Part shown: one piece after another, positions 14,510 through 35,539 of the stretch
Layout of the letters: every line of letters starts with the position of its first letter
Numbering within the stretch: position 1 is the stretch's first letter
The notes under the pieces: model-generated
The model's input: the letters and a program-made list of their open reading frames with translations, nothing else
Database searches by the model: none
What the model was told of the DNA's origin: nothing
IMG/VR virus record: IMGVR_UViG_3300036852_000185
Location: 1-41,601 of that record
DNA length: 41,601 bases
Reading direction: 5' to 3' (one strand)
From: a virus
Made by a program: the position numbers and the translations under genes

Positions 14510-15653
14510 GAAAAAGTCGTTTATCGGCCAATACCTGAAGCACCCTGGCCCACTTGCCAAGCCGCTGACGGGCAAGCGCTACAAGCGCGAGCTGAAGGCG
14601 CAGCGACGGCTTGAGTTCGGACCCGAGCAGCGCCAGCTTGCCTCTGAGAAACGCGCCGCTCGCCTCACCACCCAACGAACGGGCGACTGGTATGACTCCT
14701 ACCTCAACGACCTGAAGCGCCTTCAGGGCCAGGTCCAGGGCGCCTATGCGCAGGCGGGCCAACAAGTCGCAAGCGGCAACGCAGCCCAGGCCGGCTACGC
14801 CGAATCACTTCGCCAAAGACTTGGGACCGAGGACCGCGCCGACGCCAAGCTCAGGGGAGCAAACTATGACCCCTCGCAGTCCGGTACGGCTGCCCAAGCG
14901 GCCCTCGCCCGCTATTCGACGGGCAACACGATGGGCGGCCTACTCGCCACCCAGGGGGCGAACGAGAACGCCTACTTCGCAGCGGAACGGGGAATCGGCC
15001 ACGGCTCCAAGGTGGACCAGCTCCTACGCGCCCGCGCCAGAGGCCGGACGGTGAACGCCGACCTCCGCGACCTCGCATCCAGAAAGCGCAAGTTCGCCGC
15101 CGACTACGCGAGCCAGGCGCGCCCCCAGGAGCGCGACTTCTACCTCGGCCTCCTACAGGCGAAGCTCGGAAAGCAGGCATCGAAGCGCAGCGCGCAGACC
15201 TCGCTTGCAAACGCCCAGCTTTCCTCACAGACCTCACGGGCCAACTCCCGTCGCTCCTTCGAGGCCGCGATGGGCAACCTGCGCGAGCGGGTGCGCCACG
15301 ACCAAATCTCCGAGTCCCAAGCAGCCCAACAGGAGGCACGACTTCGCAAGCAGTTCCGCCAGGGCCGCAAGGAGTTTCGCCTCACTCACACACCCGGAGG
15401 CAAGTCGAGGGGGACGGTGGGGAGCGGCAGTTCGTCAGGGGGGGTTGGCAAGGCAATCGCGGAGCTTCGCTACCACGGCTCAACCCTCTCGCCGAAGGAG
15501 CAGAGGAGCTTCACTAGGCAAGATGCCATCGCCTACCTAATCCACGCGGGCTTCGATCGTCAGACGGCGCAGGAAGCGGTTCGTCACTTGCTCGGGGGCG
15601 GGGGTGGTTCCGGCGGCCCTTATAGCGGCGGTCATCCTGGTTTGGGGCGCTAG
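14502..15653 (+). CDS. Internal virion (ejection) protein candidate
   Basis: 383 residues, overlapping the previous gene by eight bases. It is mostly helical, with Ala/Gln/Arg/Ser-rich coiled-coil stretches (GQVQGAYAQAGQQVASGNAA, residues 75-95; 180-280). There is a Gly/Ser linker near 300-310, then a small helical domain with LSPKEQRSFTRQDAIAYLIH, similar in form to an EF-like or HTH-like bundle, ending in a Gly-rich tail. It probably travels inside the capsid and is injected with the DNA. Confidence 0.65.
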   Translation: MARKKSFIGQYLKHPGPLAKPLTGKRYKRELKAQRRLEFGPEQRQLASEKRAARLTTQRTGDWYDSYLNDLKRLQGQVQGAYAQAGQQVASGNAAQAGYAESLRQRLGTEDRADAKLRGANYDPSQSGTAAQAALARYSTGNTMGGLLATQGANENAYFAAERGIGHGSKVDQLLRARARGRTVNADLRDLASRKRKFAADYASQARPQERDFYLGLLQAKLGKQASKRSAQTSLANAQLSSQTSRANSRRSFEAAMGNLRERVRHDQISESQAAQQEARLRKQFRQGRKEFRLTHTPGGKSRGTVGSGSSSGGVGKAIAELRYHGSTLSPKEQRSFTRQDAIAYLIHAGFDRQTAQEAVRHLLGGGGGSGGPYSGGHPGLGR

Positions 15654-18600
15654 TGCCCCAGATCGGCAACCAAACCTCCGCCTCGCAGGCCGGGATTGCG
15701 AAGGGACGCAAGCGGGTCCGGCGAGCGAAGCCAACCCGAGTGGCCCCGCCAGGGCCGAGGGGTCCGACCAAGCCGCCAAAAGCCTCGACCGTCAGCCACA
15801 TTCCCCACACAGCGGGACTGACGCCAGCGCAGACCACTCGCAAGGTCAAGCGCCACCAGCAGGCGATCACAAAGGCCGCTGAAGCCGCCACCAAGACGCC
15901 CGAGTTCAAGAAGGCGCGCAAGGCTGCCAAGCCTCCCAGCCCTAAGGAGCAGGCCAAGATCGGGCGTGAGTATCGGCGCTACGCCAGGCGCACGGGCGGG
16001 ACGAAGCTCTCTGGGATCTCTAAGAAGGAGCAGAAGACTTACGCAGCACAGGAAAAGCTCGGGCTCACCTACAGGCCGGGGCCTGGGATCGGCAAGCTCG
16101 GGATTCAGCGAGTCGTAGGGAAGCCCTCAGCGGGAATACAGATCGTCCGGGCGCTGACCGGCGATCAGCCAGGGGCACAAACCCCGACGCTAAGCGAGAT
16201 CGGGAACGTGGCCGCCACTGTGGGGCTCCTCGGAGCGGGGCGAGTGCTCCGGGCGCCGAAGATTGCAGAAGACCTCGCGGCGAGCGAGCAGCGCGCCGCG
16301 GAAGTCACGCGGGCCGTCGAGGGGGAGCAGGCCGCTCGGGACATTCAGGGAGTCTCGCGCGTCCGCAAGGCCGCCCAGGCCGTGAAGACCCGCGGAGCGA
16401 TGAAGGTGCGCCGGGTCAAGTCGCTGGGCACCGTCGAGGGACGGGCGGCATCCCGCGCCCGCACCGCCGCGAGCGTCCAGCGAAAGACCGTCAAGGCGGC
16501 GCGCGCCTACACCCACCCAGCCGTTGTCGCTCCCGGCGTTCACGGGCGGATCAACGCGGCGATCCAGGGGCATCTCGCCGCGTTGAAGGAAGATCCGGTT
16601 GGAACGCTTGCCACCACGGGCCGAGTCCTTCCGGGCATGATCGCCTTCCCCGCCGCCGTTGCCTACGCTGCCGGAAAATCCGCTGTCGAGCGCAACCCGA
16701 AGCCACTCACCGATGAAGCTAAGGGTGTCGCGGCGTTCACGAAGGACATAGGCGGAAAGCTACTCTCGGGTGACCCACAGAAAGTCAAGCGCACCGTCGA
16801 GCATGATGTCGGGCTCTCGTTCGTCGTCCCGATTCCGAAACTCTTGGGGGGGGCGCGGGGAACGGCCCTGCGTGCTGCGACACGTGAGAAGCTGGCGAGT
16901 GCAACCGAGGCCCTTCCTGCGAAGCGAGTTGGCCCGGAGGGACGTTTCGGGTTCCAAGTCTCTCCCGAGAAACCCCGTGCGATTCGCCGCCGAAGTGCCG
17001 TCGAAGGGCGCAGGGTCCACCGGCGGGCCGAGCACGAGACGGCCTACTACTCGAACAAGGCCGTCAAGCACGCCCGTAAGCTGACGAAGAAGAAGGCGAA
17101 CCTTCCACGTGAAGGTGAGGTTGGCCCCGAGCACGCCGCTCATGCGGTAGTCAAGTACGGGGTCACGAGCCACGAGCACATCAAAGCGCTGAAGAAGGCA
17201 TCGAATCCTCACGAGCCGATCGAGGGCCACGTTCGCCTCAGCCAGGCGATCGACTACCTGGACAAGCACCCCGAGACGCTTGTCCACCCCGACTTCCAAA
17301 AGCTCACGGACTATCTGCGCAAGGCAGGCAAGGCCACTGAAACCTCCGAACGGGCGAAGTGGATGGGAATTGGCGATCTCTACGGACGCCAGCGCCCCGA
17401 GGACATGGTTCCCGTCTCGGCGCACGAGCTGACCGCCGCACGCACCCGCGAGGCCGCGTGGAAGGACGTACACGACCGCGAACGCACGATCAAGCAACTT
17501 CGACGCAACGCCCGCGATGCGCGCGCCAGGGGCGACCAGGATGCCTCTAAGGCCGCCTACAAGCGTGCCCGGGAAGTTCAGGCTGGAAGCCAGGCGCTGA
17601 AGAAGGCCCTCGACCCCTACACCCGTCCCGGTGGCTCGATCGACATAGCCCGCACGAAGCGCAAGCCCTGGGATAACCAGATGGTGAAGGCATACGTCGC
17701 GGATGTGAAACAGGTTGCAGCGGAGCGCGGCCACGCCGAGCCGGTTCACCTTCCTGCGGCGGGGTCGGTGATCTCCCACTACAAGGCTGGCGAGGTTTCT
17801 GCCCGCTTTGCCACGGGCGCCCCGGCCCAGCACACGGCGGCTCTGGACGAACTTAAGGCCGACCACATCGACAACACTCTCTCCTCGGTGATCGCAAGCG
17901 GCATCGACCGCCCGAGGCGGATCAGGGCATGGGCGACCTCGATGCAGCAGGCCCTCCTCAGAGAGGGGAGGCCAAACCCCGAGGGCGGCAACCTGTGGAC
18001 GCTTCAGAGTTACCAGGACGCGGTACGCAAGGGCGAGGTCAACCCGAACTTCTACGGGCTGATGCCTTCACGCGATTGGAAGCAGGCGGCTGAGAACGCC
18101 TTCGCCCACGAGGAGGTGCAGGGAACGAAGTTCGATGAGCTGACCCAGGTCGCTCAAGACATCGAGCAGCGTCGCCAGGACATCACGGGCGAATACGCGA
18201 GGCGGGCCGATGAACCAGGAACGAAGTACGTCCTCGTCCACCGCGAATACATGCGCGAGCTGGACTCGACCCTCTCCAAGCCAGGGCAGATCGAGAGCTT
18301 CCTGAACGCGAACTCGAAGCTGTGGAATCGCGTCCTGTTAGGCCTCTCACCGGGCTGGGAGCTATCGCAGTTCGTGGCCGAGGGCCTGCCGATCCTCATC
18401 GCCCACCCCGAGATCATCTACAAGGCTCCGAAGTACATCCGCGAGTACAACCGGATGACAAAGGACGACGCTCGCGCCTGGGCGGGACTGGCTGGCGAAG
18501 CCCCGCGTCTTGTGGAGTCGGCACGCGACCTGCGCCCCGACCTGCCCGAGAACACGATGGCCGACGTGGGACGGCTCGTGAAGCTAACGGAGCGAAACCG

Positions 18601-19828
18601 CGCGCTTCAAGGAATGTGGTCCGTTGCCCGAGCGCGCCCGCTGGGACTATTCGATATGGCGCGCACCGGGAAGTACCGCCAGGTGCTTGCGATGGCCGAG
18701 CTCGACCGCGACCTCAACACCTTCATGCGCGGGTTCCGTGGCTCGATGCACTTCTCCAAGGAGACGGCGGCCCGGATCAAGAACCTGCCCCTTCACGAGC
18801 AGATGGCGTGGCTCGGCAAGCACCCCTCCGAGGCCGTCAAGCTTGAGAACTACATCGACGACATAGCCGGGAATTGGGATGCCTTCACGAGCTTCGAGCG
18901 GTCGTTTTCTCCCGCCCTGATCTTCTTTCCTTTCATCCGCTACTCGCTTCGCTGGACGTTTTGGAGCTTCCCAATGCGCCATCCGGTCAGGGCGCAGATT
19001 CTCTACTTCCTGAGCCAGATGAACGCGGACTCGCTCGAGAAGCTGCTCGGGGCAAAGCCACACACCTGGACCGACTACGCCTTCCCGGTGGTAAACAGAG
19101 GCGGGGCGGTTGAACCCTACGGCACACGCATCTCCCCGGCACTCTCCACGCCTGTTGAGGCGGTTGGGTCGGGGAATGTCACGAGGCTGATGGGAGCAGC
19201 GAACCCCTCCCTCGCACTACTGGTCGAGGCCATCACGGGCGTCAACCCGATGACGGGCGAGCAGGAGGCCAAAGGCGCCGCCGCATTGCATCAGCTTCTC
19301 GCCATGCCAGCGCCGCTTCGGGCGTTGAGTCGTACCCAGCTCGGCCCGGTGAAGGTGCCCAACATCACGGGCGCCTCCACCTCTCCCACCGCACAGGCGT
19401 TCCGCAACATCGACCCGAATCGGAACCTGCGCTCGCTCCTTGCGCCGCCGCTTCCGCTTTCAGCGGAACGCTATCGGATGCAAAATGCCCTCTCCGCGAA
19501 CCTGGATGCTTCCAGCACGATTGACAGCGAGGTCGGCCAGTTTGCCGCCTTGGTGGATCAGTACGGAATGAAGGAAGCCTCCAAGCGATTCAAGGCCGAC
19601 ATCAAGGCAGGCAAGGTTCTCAGCGGCATCAGCGGTGGCTCCGCCGATGCCAAGTTCCAGCGGATTCAGGATCGTTTCTACGAAATCAAGTACGGGACTG
19701 GCGGTGGGGGGGGCGTGAAGGCTCCCTCGAATCCACTGTTCGGCGGATCGGCTGGAAAGTCGGTCTTCGGACCTTCGCGCGGCAAGGGCATCTTCGGCCC
19801 CTCCAAGGGCAAGTCGATCTTCAAGTAG
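15653..19828 (+). CDS. Giant internal virion (DNA-ejection) protein
   Basis: 1391 residues from a GTG whose first base is the last base of the upstream TAG. Residues 1-60 are basic and Pro-rich. There follow long Lys/Arg/Ala helices. The C-terminal third has hydrophobic segments (LLGLSPGWELSQFVAEGLPI and FFPFIRYSLRWTFWSFPMR) that could form membrane-crossing helices. The extreme C-terminus repeats FGPS/GKxIF-type units three times. Size, position last in the virion block and hydrophobic elements match the largest ejection protein of podoviruses, which forms a channel across the envelope. I see no transglycosylase Glu motif, so a lytic function is not claimed. Confidence 0.75.
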   Translation: MPQIGNQTSASQAGIAKGRKRVRRAKPTRVAPPGPRGPTKPPKASTVSHIPHTAGLTPAQTTRKVKRHQQAITKAAEAATKTPEFKKARKAAKPPSPKEQAKIGREYRRYARRTGGTKLSGISKKEQKTYAAQEKLGLTYRPGPGIGKLGIQRVVGKPSAGIQIVRALTGDQPGAQTPTLSEIGNVAATVGLLGAGRVLRAPKIAEDLAASEQRAAEVTRAVEGEQAARDIQGVSRVRKAAQAVKTRGAMKVRRVKSLGTVEGRAASRARTAASVQRKTVKAARAYTHPAVVAPGVHGRINAAIQGHLAALKEDPVGTLATTGRVLPGMIAFPAAVAYAAGKSAVERNPKPLTDEAKGVAAFTKDIGGKLLSGDPQKVKRTVEHDVGLSFVVPIPKLLGGARGTALRAATREKLASATEALPAKRVGPEGRFGFQVSPEKPRAIRRRSAVEGRRVHRRAEHETAYYSNKAVKHARKLTKKKANLPREGEVGPEHAAHAVVKYGVTSHEHIKALKKASNPHEPIEGHVRLSQAIDYLDKHPETLVHPDFQKLTDYLRKAGKATETSERAKWMGIGDLYGRQRPEDMVPVSAHELTAARTREAAWKDVHDRERTIKQLRRNARDARARGDQDASKAAYKRAREVQAGSQALKKALDPYTRPGGSIDIARTKRKPWDNQMVKAYVADVKQVAAERGHAEPVHLPAAGSVISHYKAGEVSARFATGAPAQHTAALDELKADHIDNTLSSVIASGIDRPRRIRAWATSMQQALLREGRPNPEGGNLWTLQSYQDAVRKGEVNPNFYGLMPSRDWKQAAENAFAHEEVQGTKFDELTQVAQDIEQRRQDITGEYARRADEPGTKYVLVHREYMRELDSTLSKPGQIESFLNANSKLWNRVLLGLSPGWELSQFVAEGLPILIAHPEIIYKAPKYIREYNRMTKDDARAWAGLAGEAPRLVESARDLRPDLPENTMADVGRLVKLTERNRALQGMWSVARARPLGLFDMARTGKYRQVLAMAELDRDLNTFMRGFRGSMHFSKETAARIKNLPLHEQMAWLGKHPSEAVKLENYIDDIAGNWDAFTSFERSFSPALIFFPFIRYSLRWTFWSFPMRHPVRAQILYFLSQMNADSLEKLLGAKPHTWTDYAFPVVNRGGAVEPYGTRISPALSTPVEAVGSGNVTRLMGAANPSLALLVEAITGVNPMTGEQEAKGAAALHQLLAMPAPLRALSRTQLGPVKVPNITGASTSPTAQAFRNIDPNRNLRSLLAPPLPLSAERYRMQNALSANLDASSTIDSEVGQFAALVDQYGMKEASKRFKADIKAGKVLSGISGGSADAKFQRIQDRFYEIKYGTGGGGGVKAPSNPLFGGSAGKSVFGPSRGKGIFGPSKGKSIFK

Positions 19829-33513: not shown

Positions 33514-33717
33514 ATGACAGACGAGACTCTAACGAGGTTGATCCAAAAGCCTGGCGGCAAGGCCCACCTGCCTAAGTTCGGTGGGTTCCAGTATTCCCAG
33601 CAAGCCGCCTGCGGGATCGCCGTTCGGCCGCTTGAGCAAATGCGGATTGTGAGTGACACCGAGGTACGACCCGACGAGTTGTGTCGCCGCTGCTTCGATG
33701 AGCGGGGTGAGAAGTGA
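33514..33717 (+). CDS. Small Cys-containing protein before the methyltransferase
   Basis: 67 residues; ATG 33514 follows a GAGG. A zinc-like arrangement appears as QQAACG, then ELCRRCFDERGEK near the end. Its stop overlaps the methyltransferase GTG. Function unknown. Confidence 0.6.
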   Translation: MTDETLTRLIQKPGGKAHLPKFGGFQYSQQAACGIAVRPLEQMRIVSDTEVRPDELCRRCFDERGEK

Positions 33718-34706
33718 ATGTCTGCGGATCGCTTTTCTCAGGTGACGGACTCCTCGACTACGGCCTCGCTCTCGCCGGATGGGAACACGCCTTCTTCTGC
33801 GAGTCCGAACCCGACCGCCGCGCCATCTTGTCTATGCGATGGCCCGGAGTGCCGATCTACGAGGACGTGCGATCGGTGGATGGCGGTGCGCCTCGCGTCG
33901 ATCTTCTCGCGGGAGGATTTCCTTGCAAGGGAGCCTCTGTCACCGGAGACGGAACGGGACTCGACCATCCTGAGACTGCGCTGTGGCGGGAGATGGCCCG
34001 AATCGTCGGCGTACTTCGACCCCGATTCGTCCTCATCGAGAACGTCGCAAACCTCCTCGTCGTGGCGCGATCCAAGGGCGAGCCTCCTGGAACCGCGTGG
34101 GGAGAGGTATCTGGCGACCTGGCCTCGCTCGGCTATGTGTGCGCGTGGGATTGTCTACCCGCTGCCGCCTTCGGCGCCCCGCACTTCCGTGATCGGGTCT
34201 ACGCCGTTGCTGCCGATTCCGCATGGGATGCCGAAGGAGAAGCAAGCGCGCCGGCCGGGACCAACGGGCAACGAGCTCGGGCGAGCGATCACGCTGCTTC
34301 CGACACCACGGGCCAGGGTGGACAAGGAACACGGCCCGGAAGGACACCATCGGGGCGAGCTACGCGCAACGGTCACCCTCTTGCCGACGCCGACCGCGAA
34401 CGACGACAACAAGAGTCCCGAAGCGCACCTGGCGATGAAGGCCCGCATGAGTGGGCCGCGGAACACGATTATCCAACAGCCGTCGCGTGGGGCGAGTACG
34501 AGCCAGCTATCCGGCGATGGGAAGCCGTCCAAGGCCCCGCACCTGCACCCCTGTTTCGTGGAGTGGATGCTAGGGACGCCCGCTGGGTGGTCCGCTCCCG
34601 ATTGTCAGCTCTCGGCGATGGAGTTCAAGTCCAGGCCGGCCACTTCCTCGGAGCGAAGCTGATGGAGCTGAACCGCGAGCTACAAGCCGTTCAGAAAGCC
34701 GCATGA
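33714..34706 (+). CDS. C5-cytosine DNA methyltransferase
   Basis: 330 residues from GTG overlapping the upstream stop. Motif I is SLFSGDGLLDYGL (6-18). Motif IV, GGFPCKGAS (67-75), carries the Pro-Cys nucleophile. Motif VI, FVLIENV (105-111), carries the Glu-Asn. Motif VIII-like is GAPHFRDRV (154-162). The C-terminal part has AWGEYEPAIRRWE and LSALGDGVQVQAGHFLGA (motif X-like). It would methylate cytosine in phage DNA, probably as protection from host restriction; no partner nuclease is seen. The FVEWM motif often found in such phage enzymes is absent from this frame but present in the +1 frame. Confidence 0.88.
   Translation: MNVCGSLFSGDGLLDYGLALAGWEHAFFCESEPDRRAILSMRWPGVPIYEDVRSVDGGAPRVDLLAGGFPCKGASVTGDGTGLDHPETALWREMARIVGVLRPRFVLIENVANLLVVARSKGEPPGTAWGEVSGDLASLGYVCAWDCLPAAAFGAPHFRDRVYAVAADSAWDAEGEASAPAGTNGQRARASDHAASDTTGQGGQGTRPGRTPSGRATRNGHPLADADRERRQQESRSAPGDEGPHEWAAEHDYPTAVAWGEYEPAIRRWEAVQGPAPAPLFRGVDARDARWVVRSRLSALGDGVQVQAGHFLGAKLMELNRELQAVQKAA
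33718..34662 (+). other. Fully open +1 frame inside the methyltransferase gene
   Basis: ATG 33718 opens 314 codons in the +1 frame. The text carries family-like motifs: SSSSRTSQTSSSW, LATWPRSAM (132-140), YPLPPSAPRTS, two LLPTP repeats (193-197, 221-225), and HPCFVEWMLGTPAGWSAPDC (277-296). From memory, these occur together in many annotated phage proteins linked to methyltransferases. It may be an overprinted gene, a shadow, or the result of frameshifts. Confidence 0.5.
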
Positions 34707-34775: not shown

Positions 34776-34964
34776 ATGTGCAATTACAAGGGCACCTACA
34801 CGATGACGGCCCGTTGCTCGAACTGCGGCTGGGAAGAACGGGTGAAGATCACGAAGGGCCACGATGTGGTGGGGGTTCTGATGAGAACCGCTCGTCCTCG
34901 TTGCGAAACCCGCCGACTCCATGCTGGCGATTTCGTTGAGGCCGTTTCGGGGAGCGGGGCATGA
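34776..34964 (+). CDS. Zinc-ribbon protein, possibly 5'-truncated by a frameshift
   Basis: 62 residues. YTMTARCSNCGWEERVKITK gives a zinc knuckle, with a further Cys in RPRCETRR. No good ribosome site lies before ATG 34776. Upstream, an ATG at 34703 overlaps the methyltransferase stop, and adding the two G present in repeat copy 1 would join it in frame to this sequence (KGERSGKTDSEERVETIDE). The original gene was probably longer and lost its start by a two-base deletion. Confidence 0.55.
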   Translation: MCNYKGTYTMTARCSNCGWEERVKITKGHDVVGVLMRTARPRCETRRLHAGDFVEAVSGSGA

Positions 34965-34987
34965 CCAACCAACCAAAGGAGCAAGCG

Positions 34988-35539
34988 ATGAACGAAGTAC
35001 CGTGGATCAGAAGCGGAACGGGCGCAACCCCGGCTGACGGTGGCTGCGTCATGCAGATGGTCGATTGGGTGTCGCGCAACGAGTGGTCGGACAAGCCACC
35101 CTGCGTGCATCCGGTGATCCGGGTCTTGGCAATTGACATCAACGACCGATTGGGCGACGACGAGCGCCAGAAGCTCCTCGACTTGATCCCCCGGATGATG
35201 AACACCGCCGGGGGCGACGAGGCGCTGACCCGCAAGCTCCTGGGCCATCTGGCCCGACGCAGCTACAAGCTGTACGAGACGTGGACGACGAAGGCGCACT
35301 ACGACGACGGAGGTGCGGTTCTAGCCTGCATCGAAGCAGCCGAGCAAGGCGAGGCTGCGGAGGCTGCGTGGGCTGCGGAGGCTGCGTGGGCTGCGGAGGC
35401 TGCGTGGGCACCTGACTACCTGGGCCTCCTCACCGGCCTTCTCGATCGCTACGACGAGCTGGTGGACCGAGGGGAAGTCGAACAGGTTGACCTCACTCCC
35501 GTCTGCGAGGTCATGAACCGCGAACCCGTTTCTGCATGA
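34988..35539 (+). CDS. Phage protein of the 'CVMQMVDWVS...PVIRVLAIDIND' type
   Basis: 183 residues from ATG 34988, which has AAAGGAG upstream; ATG 34961, overlapping the previous stop, is an alternative. GGCVMQMVDWVSRNEWSDKP, then CVHPVIRVLAIDINDRL and LLDLIPRMMNTAGG recall a family of actinophage proteins of unknown function. Residues encoded by 35354-35407 are three identical AAEAAW units. The C-terminus is helical and acidic. Confidence 0.72.
   Translation: MNEVPWIRSGTGATPADGGCVMQMVDWVSRNEWSDKPPCVHPVIRVLAIDINDRLGDDERQKLLDLIPRMMNTAGGDEALTRKLLGHLARRSYKLYETWTTKAHYDDGGAVLACIEAAEQGEAAEAAWAAEAAWAAEAAWAPDYLGLLTGLLDRYDELVDRGEVEQVDLTPVCEVMNREPVSA
35354..35407 (+). repeat. Three tandem 18-bp units
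   Basis: Exact 18-bp units (gctgcggaggctgcgtgg) at 35354, 35372 and 35390, encoding AAEAAW three times. The frame is kept, so copy number could vary without breaking the gene. Confidence 0.9.

Follow-up and report, generated by a model that had tools for sequence, protein, structure and literature searches.

Long genes nested on the same strand are considered rare in bacteria and phages, and annotation pipelines reject them. Among C5-cytosine DNA methyltransferases, M.EaeI is a two-polypeptide enzyme like M.EcoHK31I, and in work by Lee, Kam and Shaw that appeared in NAR in 1995, the coding sequence of the M.EcoHK31I small subunit is said to lie within the large gene, in a different frame. The multispecific C5-methyltransferases of Bacillus phages (SPR, phi3T), which Trautner et al. 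reportedly treated in 1996, hold several recognition modules in a single enzyme frame, in the stretch from motif VIII to motif IX.

PMC3404938 describes M.EcoHK31I (YGGCCR) as a two-polypeptide C5-methyltransferase whose large subunit carries motifs I to VIII and X as well as the predicted target recognition domain, and whose small subunit carries motif IX. In the same source, M.AquI (CYCGRG) consists of two polypeptides, with motifs IX and X on the small subunit. M.EcoHK31I thus sets the experimental precedent for a small polypeptide of its own that bears motif IX, and M.AquI for a split form of the locus studied here. This locus lies in a 41,601-nt viral sequence (IMGVR_UViG_3300036852_000185), referred to as the window, and probably encodes a nested alpha/beta C5-cytosine DNA methyltransferase, in which two polypeptides form one enzyme. 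Like M.EcoHK31I, it has a large polypeptide, alpha (frame 0), that has motifs I to VIII and an X-like end and lacks motif IX, and a smaller one, beta, with motif IX; as is said of M.EcoHK31I, the smaller frame (here +1) lies inside the larger. In contrast to M.EcoHK31I, with its predicted target recognition domain on the large subunit, the LPTP cassettes that occupy the recognition position in the window are on beta and are disordered in structure models. Moreover, M.EcoHK31I belongs to a restriction-modification system, whereas the window gene is carried by an apparently temperate phage and is one of a large family with several partitions of motifs between the frames; the likeness is one of motif layout. 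The M.AquI arrangement is resembled by Andrew gp43/44 and Firecracker gp6/5 and, more generally, by 42 related loci with motifs IX and X on the small subunit; the window differs from it in having the X-like motif on alpha and beta wholly inside alpha. With the modules of SPR and phi3T the beta cassettes were compared by position; the former lie in the enzyme frame and the latter in +1.

The original prediction, drawn from the letters of the window, had described two frames open for more than 310 codons, a methyltransferase with motifs I, IV, VI, VIII and an X-like end in frame 0, and a +1 frame reading LATWPRSAM over frame-0 GDLASLGY, then two LLPTP repeats and HPCFVEWMLGTPAGW; FVEWM was said to be missing from frame 0. 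All of this was borne out. The frames run for 330 codons from a GTG and for 314 codons from an ATG, the strings are present in +1, and inspection of frame 0 showed no FVEWM. Alpha matches PF00145 (Pfam DNA_methylase; residues 5-170, 1.6e-29) and phrog_363 (1.1e-52), and its motifs could be located (Table 1), with PCK where PCQ is usual and GDGV where GNxV is usual. The profile search proposed for both translations also yielded a family for +1, phrog_1008 (residues 63-299, 1.2e-25), a family from phages that carries the annotation DNA methyltransferase. phrog_1008 weakly matches frame 0 as well, which likely stems from split relatives with a WGxYxxAIxRW segment inside their +1 protein. A PDB search with the +1 protein gave nothing meaningful (best E 0.23, retroviral integrases). 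The window departs from the usual monomeric form, with motifs IX and X on one chain: its X-like motif is in alpha and motif IX only in +1. Across the family, the C-terminal end of beta reads LNPxWVEWLMGFPxGW or similar. The +1 protein is the carrier of the motif IX missing from frame 0, which is the likely reason for the two-frame layout and had escaped the original prediction.

Table 1. Positions of the alpha and beta reading frames and of their motifs in the window.
Feature	Position	Strand	Basis
Alpha, C5-cytosine DNA methyltransferase catalytic polypeptide, frame 0	33714..34706	+	GTG start, 330 aa
Start region GAGCGGGGTGAGAAGTGAATG	33700..33720	+	TGA of upstream ORF overlaps alpha GTG and abuts beta ATG
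Alpha motif I, FSGDG	33735..33749	+	sequence
Alpha motif IV with catalytic Cys, GGFPCKGAS	33912..33938	+	sequence
Alpha motif VI, IENV	34035..34046	+	sequence
Alpha motif VIII, GAPHFRDRV	34173..34199	+	sequence
Alpha WGEYEPAIRRWE segment	34488..34523	+	split and single-chain relatives have it in frame with, and directly ahead of, motif IX
Alpha motif X-like, LSALGDGV	34602..34625	+	sequence
Beta (putative), polypeptide of at most 314 aa nested in +1	33718..34662	+	phrog_1008 match; homologues in +1 of methyltransferase genes
Beta FDPDSSSSRTSQ	34015..34050	+	resembles YDPDT..W(R/K)TSQ of relatives
Beta TWPRSAM	34117..34137	+	resembles TWPRSGM of relatives
Beta LLPTP cassette 1 (its start)	34294..34323	+	sequence
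Beta LLPTP cassette 2, LLPTPTANDDNKSPEAHLAMKARM	34378..34449	+	common to otherwise dissimilar loci
Beta motif IX, FVEWMLGTPAGW	34555..34590	+	without counterpart in alpha; complementary distribution in 177 loci; co-linear with M.HhaI RECARVMGYPDSY

A first survey of viral sequences retrieved 22 loci with the +1 protein and a further 80 with an alignment covering just its last 37 residues; together with Arthrobacter phage Andrew and the window, this gave a set of 104 loci including a few duplicates. In all 104, the +1 family and a methyltransferase ORF overlap, offset by exactly +1, and four further relatives of the window, retrieved by alpha alone, are also nested in +1. Among 80 loci on genome contigs, 72 are nested in +1, five are single chains, two are split in +1 and one is split in +2; as these loci were picked by +1 similarity, the counts do not give the share of methyltransferases without beta. 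The genome loci range in GC content from 0.34 to 0.74 and bear titles from Bacteroidetes, Firmicutes, Proteobacteria, Actinobacteria, Planctomycetes, Synergistaceae, Treponema, Chloroflexi, Acidobacteria, Nitrospiria, Gemmatimonadetes and others. No clearly freestanding copy of phrog_1008 was found among the loci surveyed.

Conservation of the +1 frame could be a shadow of conserved methyltransferase residues and GC-rich codons in a frame that is never translated. When the frame-0 codons of the window were permuted synonymously, a +1 frame devoid of stops had P = 0.048, the expectation being 2.35 stops, so that its openness alone is only mildly unusual at the GC content of the window; in the reverse permutation, frame 0 was open given +1 in 0 of 2000 cases. 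The content of +1 is a different matter. Against a +1 family profile built without the window (and without L105, L107, L108, L111 and L118-L120; L numbers denote loci of our set), the +1 frame of the window scored 132.7 bits, and 300 synonymous permutations of its frame-0 protein reached a mean of 24.3 bits (sd 10.5, maximum 63.2), corresponding to z = 10.3. Part of the +1 similarity is thus real shadow, as permuted sequences retain these ∼24 bits. Nine nested loci reached z values between 4.3 and 15.5 in the same test, inflated for those that were included in the profile (L001), and z was 1.4 for the negative control, the single-chain gp72 of Mycobacterium phage Tweety, in which use of +1 is not expected. 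In 68 nested genome loci, +1 contains no stop, although permutation leads one to expect 4.0 on average (P < 0.05 in 62 of them), and nesting persists at a genomic GC of 34-45%, at which +1 should contain several stops.

Substitution patterns, which the original prediction had also proposed to compare in both frames, were analyzed in nested loci, using 27 disjoint pairs at 72-99% DNA identity; a small set of eight pairs of flanking genes served as controls. Changes that are nonsynonymous in frame 0 occurred at 0.0181 per site if synonymous in +1 and at 0.0039 if nonsynonymous in +1. The resulting omega of the +1 frame (NN/NS) is 0.218, compared with 0.791 for the unused +1 frame of the controls, and differences by frame-0 codon position are distributed 1437/988/1697 in nested loci versus 260/152/883 in controls. 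The +1 frame is under purifying selection across the family. By region, its omega falls from 1.04 ahead of motif IV to 0.26 and 0.27 up to motif VIII, 0.17 from VIII to IX, and 0.14 after IX; constraint on beta sets in at motif IV and is strongest from VIII onwards. Since the N-terminal third is unconstrained, the full 314 aa may not be a real product. The ratio for alpha (NN/SN) is 0.06 to 0.13 except in the interval from VIII to IX; there it rises to 0.34, and beta is under the tighter constraint. Comparisons of the window with L001 and L118 gave NN/NS values of 1.65, 1.24 and 0.92, based on few NS changes in DNA too diverged for a pairwise test, so that selection in the lineage of the window rests on the profile test. 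Together with the distribution of motif IX and the start signals described below, the codon-permutation, profile and substitution tests led us to reject a shadow ORF, which we regard as highly improbable. Real dual coding is well supported at the level of the family and, for the window, by the profile test.

Assignment by simple patterns, with a few loci misfiled, placed motif IX in either alpha or beta in 177 loci, never in both. The main class (91 loci, including the window) has IX in beta and X in alpha. In 42 loci, including those of Andrew and Firecracker, IX and X are both in beta and alpha ends soon past motif VIII, and 18 loci (e.g., L126) have IX and X in alpha and LPTP cassettes in beta. 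In L165, L175, L188, Geralt gp64 and Tweety gp72, everything is in one frame. The split and single-chain relatives evidently reflect frame switches driven by indels in other lineages. Paired indels or an assembly error as the source of the second frame in our contig, which the original prediction had listed as one option, nevertheless have next to no probability: L001, whose alpha shares 51% aligned identity with that of the window, L118 and more than 170 other loci share the frame relation, and this option found no support among such distant relatives.

The single chains also indicate what beta may contribute. In these chains the LPTP cassettes separate motif VIII from motif IX, and cassettes of the same types recur in the +1 ORFs of 25-43 other loci. 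A single-chain profile puts EWMMGxPxGW on motif IX of M.HhaI (RECARVMGYPDSY) with motif X next, a co-linear match that by itself is far below significance. In a single-chain structure model, which matches M.HhaI and M.HaeIII, the core and the IX-X end are predicted with a pLDDT of 84-94 and the cassettes are unstructured. AlphaFold modeling of the window beta alone gave a mean pLDDT of 54, the NDDNK cassette and motif IX being the only confident regions.

The PTPxANDDNKSPEAHxAMK cassette, present in the window and in L001-L022, is common to methyltransferases with dissimilar backbones. This sharing suggests that a DNA module with two open frames has been exchanged horizontally.

The lack of a confident fold for beta alone would fit a translated product with a separate role, such as a regulator or an anti-restriction factor, rather than a methyltransferase subunit. 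We consider this unlikely, because alpha lacks motif IX whenever beta has it, beta of the split relatives carries motif X too, and the single-chain relatives have the cassettes and motif IX of beta fused into the enzyme. Beta is thus probably a subunit of the enzyme.

How beta would be translated is indicated by start signals. In the window, the stop codon of the upstream ORF overlaps the start of alpha and abuts that of beta (Table 1), an arrangement that may allow translational coupling. The beta start is uncertain; besides the ATG at 33718, an internal ATG at 33880 and an internal GTG at 33886 are possible candidates. In a clade whose alpha contains the stretch D[ETDA]RSI.DV, the bases encoding it also spell GGAG..ATG, the ATG being in +1, and both elements are present in 41 of 64 loci. 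Codon choice in this stretch is biased: Asp is GAT in 54 of 63 cases compared to 38% elsewhere in alpha (p = 3e-14), and NGG codons for Arg (p = 2e-8) and AGY codons for Ser (p = 3e-5) are enriched, all p-values ignoring relatedness. This clade, to which the window does not belong, apparently has an embedded Shine-Dalgarno sequence and ATG for beta. A dedicated start signal argues against programmed ribosomal frameshifting that would fuse frame 0 to +1 in one chain. A +1 shift would fit Andrew and Firecracker, where alpha stops soon past motif VIII and the remainder of the enzyme is in +1, but the nested form has motif X back in frame 0 and would need two shifts, and constrained beta residues lie well upstream of motif VIII. 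Frameshifting is therefore very unlikely. Of the origins offered by the original prediction, true dual coding thus gains support from nesting in the viral and genome loci, purifying selection in both frames and the embedded ribosome binding site and start of one clade. Its related suggestion, of an annotated family residing in +1 of methyltransferase genes, holds for phrog_1008.

In the two-polypeptide enzyme that we favor, frame 0 would provide AdoMet binding and catalysis (motifs I-VIII) as well as motif X on alpha, and the +1 frame of the same DNA would provide beta, with at least one LPTP cassette in the target-recognition position followed by motif IX. Because of their position and exchange, the cassettes may be DNA recognition units. 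Alpha and beta would assemble into a heterodimer with beta as a small DNA-reading domain, and the enzyme would methylate cytosines of phage, perhaps host, DNA. As terminase, portal and integrase genes in the window indicate an apparently temperate, tailed phage, self-protection against restriction is a likely role, and the enzyme would probably serve restriction evasion. We infer beta translation in this phage, formation of the heterodimer and its biological role from the evidence above.

On balance, we lean slightly towards a broader reading, in which a very widespread class of methyltransferases, spread over phages and over bacteria from many phyla, is dual-coded, specificity evolves by swapping cassettes that are open in both frames, and small indels switch the assignment of motifs IX and X between frames. 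If true, this class would hold the catalytic and target-reading halves of an enzyme on the same DNA, in nested, split, cassette-only and fused forms, and target specificity is suggested to reside in exchangeable second-frame cassettes. With hundreds of loci in which both frames are under purifying selection, and with natural split and fused versions serving as controls, the family offers a tractable model for the co-evolution of two proteins on one DNA sequence.

Our analysis also corrects a common annotation gap: one of the two polypeptides of the enzyme goes unannotated, and clones of alpha only may therefore be inactive. Of the phage records with beta-family matches (224 and 212), the majority of those listed carry a single methyltransferase. 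Beta is the annotated gene in Pseudomonas phage PMG1 and Cylindrospermopsis phage Cr-LKS3, and PMG1 has only beta annotated. The nested pair is also present in Bas72 and Bas80, two BASEL phages that infect laboratory E. coli K-12. Escherichia phage K1ind3 annotates both nested ORFs, and its ORF29 ("putative Mte8-like protein"), like phrog_1008, is a beta homologue; such annotations read methyltransferase or unknown and leave nesting and motif IX unexplained. In the literature searched, we found no paper describing the nesting as a family, which does not prove absence, and no description of its breadth, cassette content and frame switching as seen here.

Several loci show further peculiarities. 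In Mycobacterium phage Llama (gp74/75; L116, 1122-2037), alpha is broken just past motif VI and resumes in another frame while beta is open; several phages have this type of interruption, which could be decay or a frameshift. In phage PMG1 (L282, 1164-1994), alpha apparently has no in-frame N-terminus. At least five separate nested methyltransferase genes (L220-L224) are located on one Roseovarius MAG chromosome (OX638333.1). Elsewhere in the window, the structural region contains a 1391-aa ORF (15653-19828) without a PHROGs match at E 0.001, and the ORF downstream of the methyltransferase (34961-35539) carries a short repeat, EAAWAAEAAWAAEAAWA.
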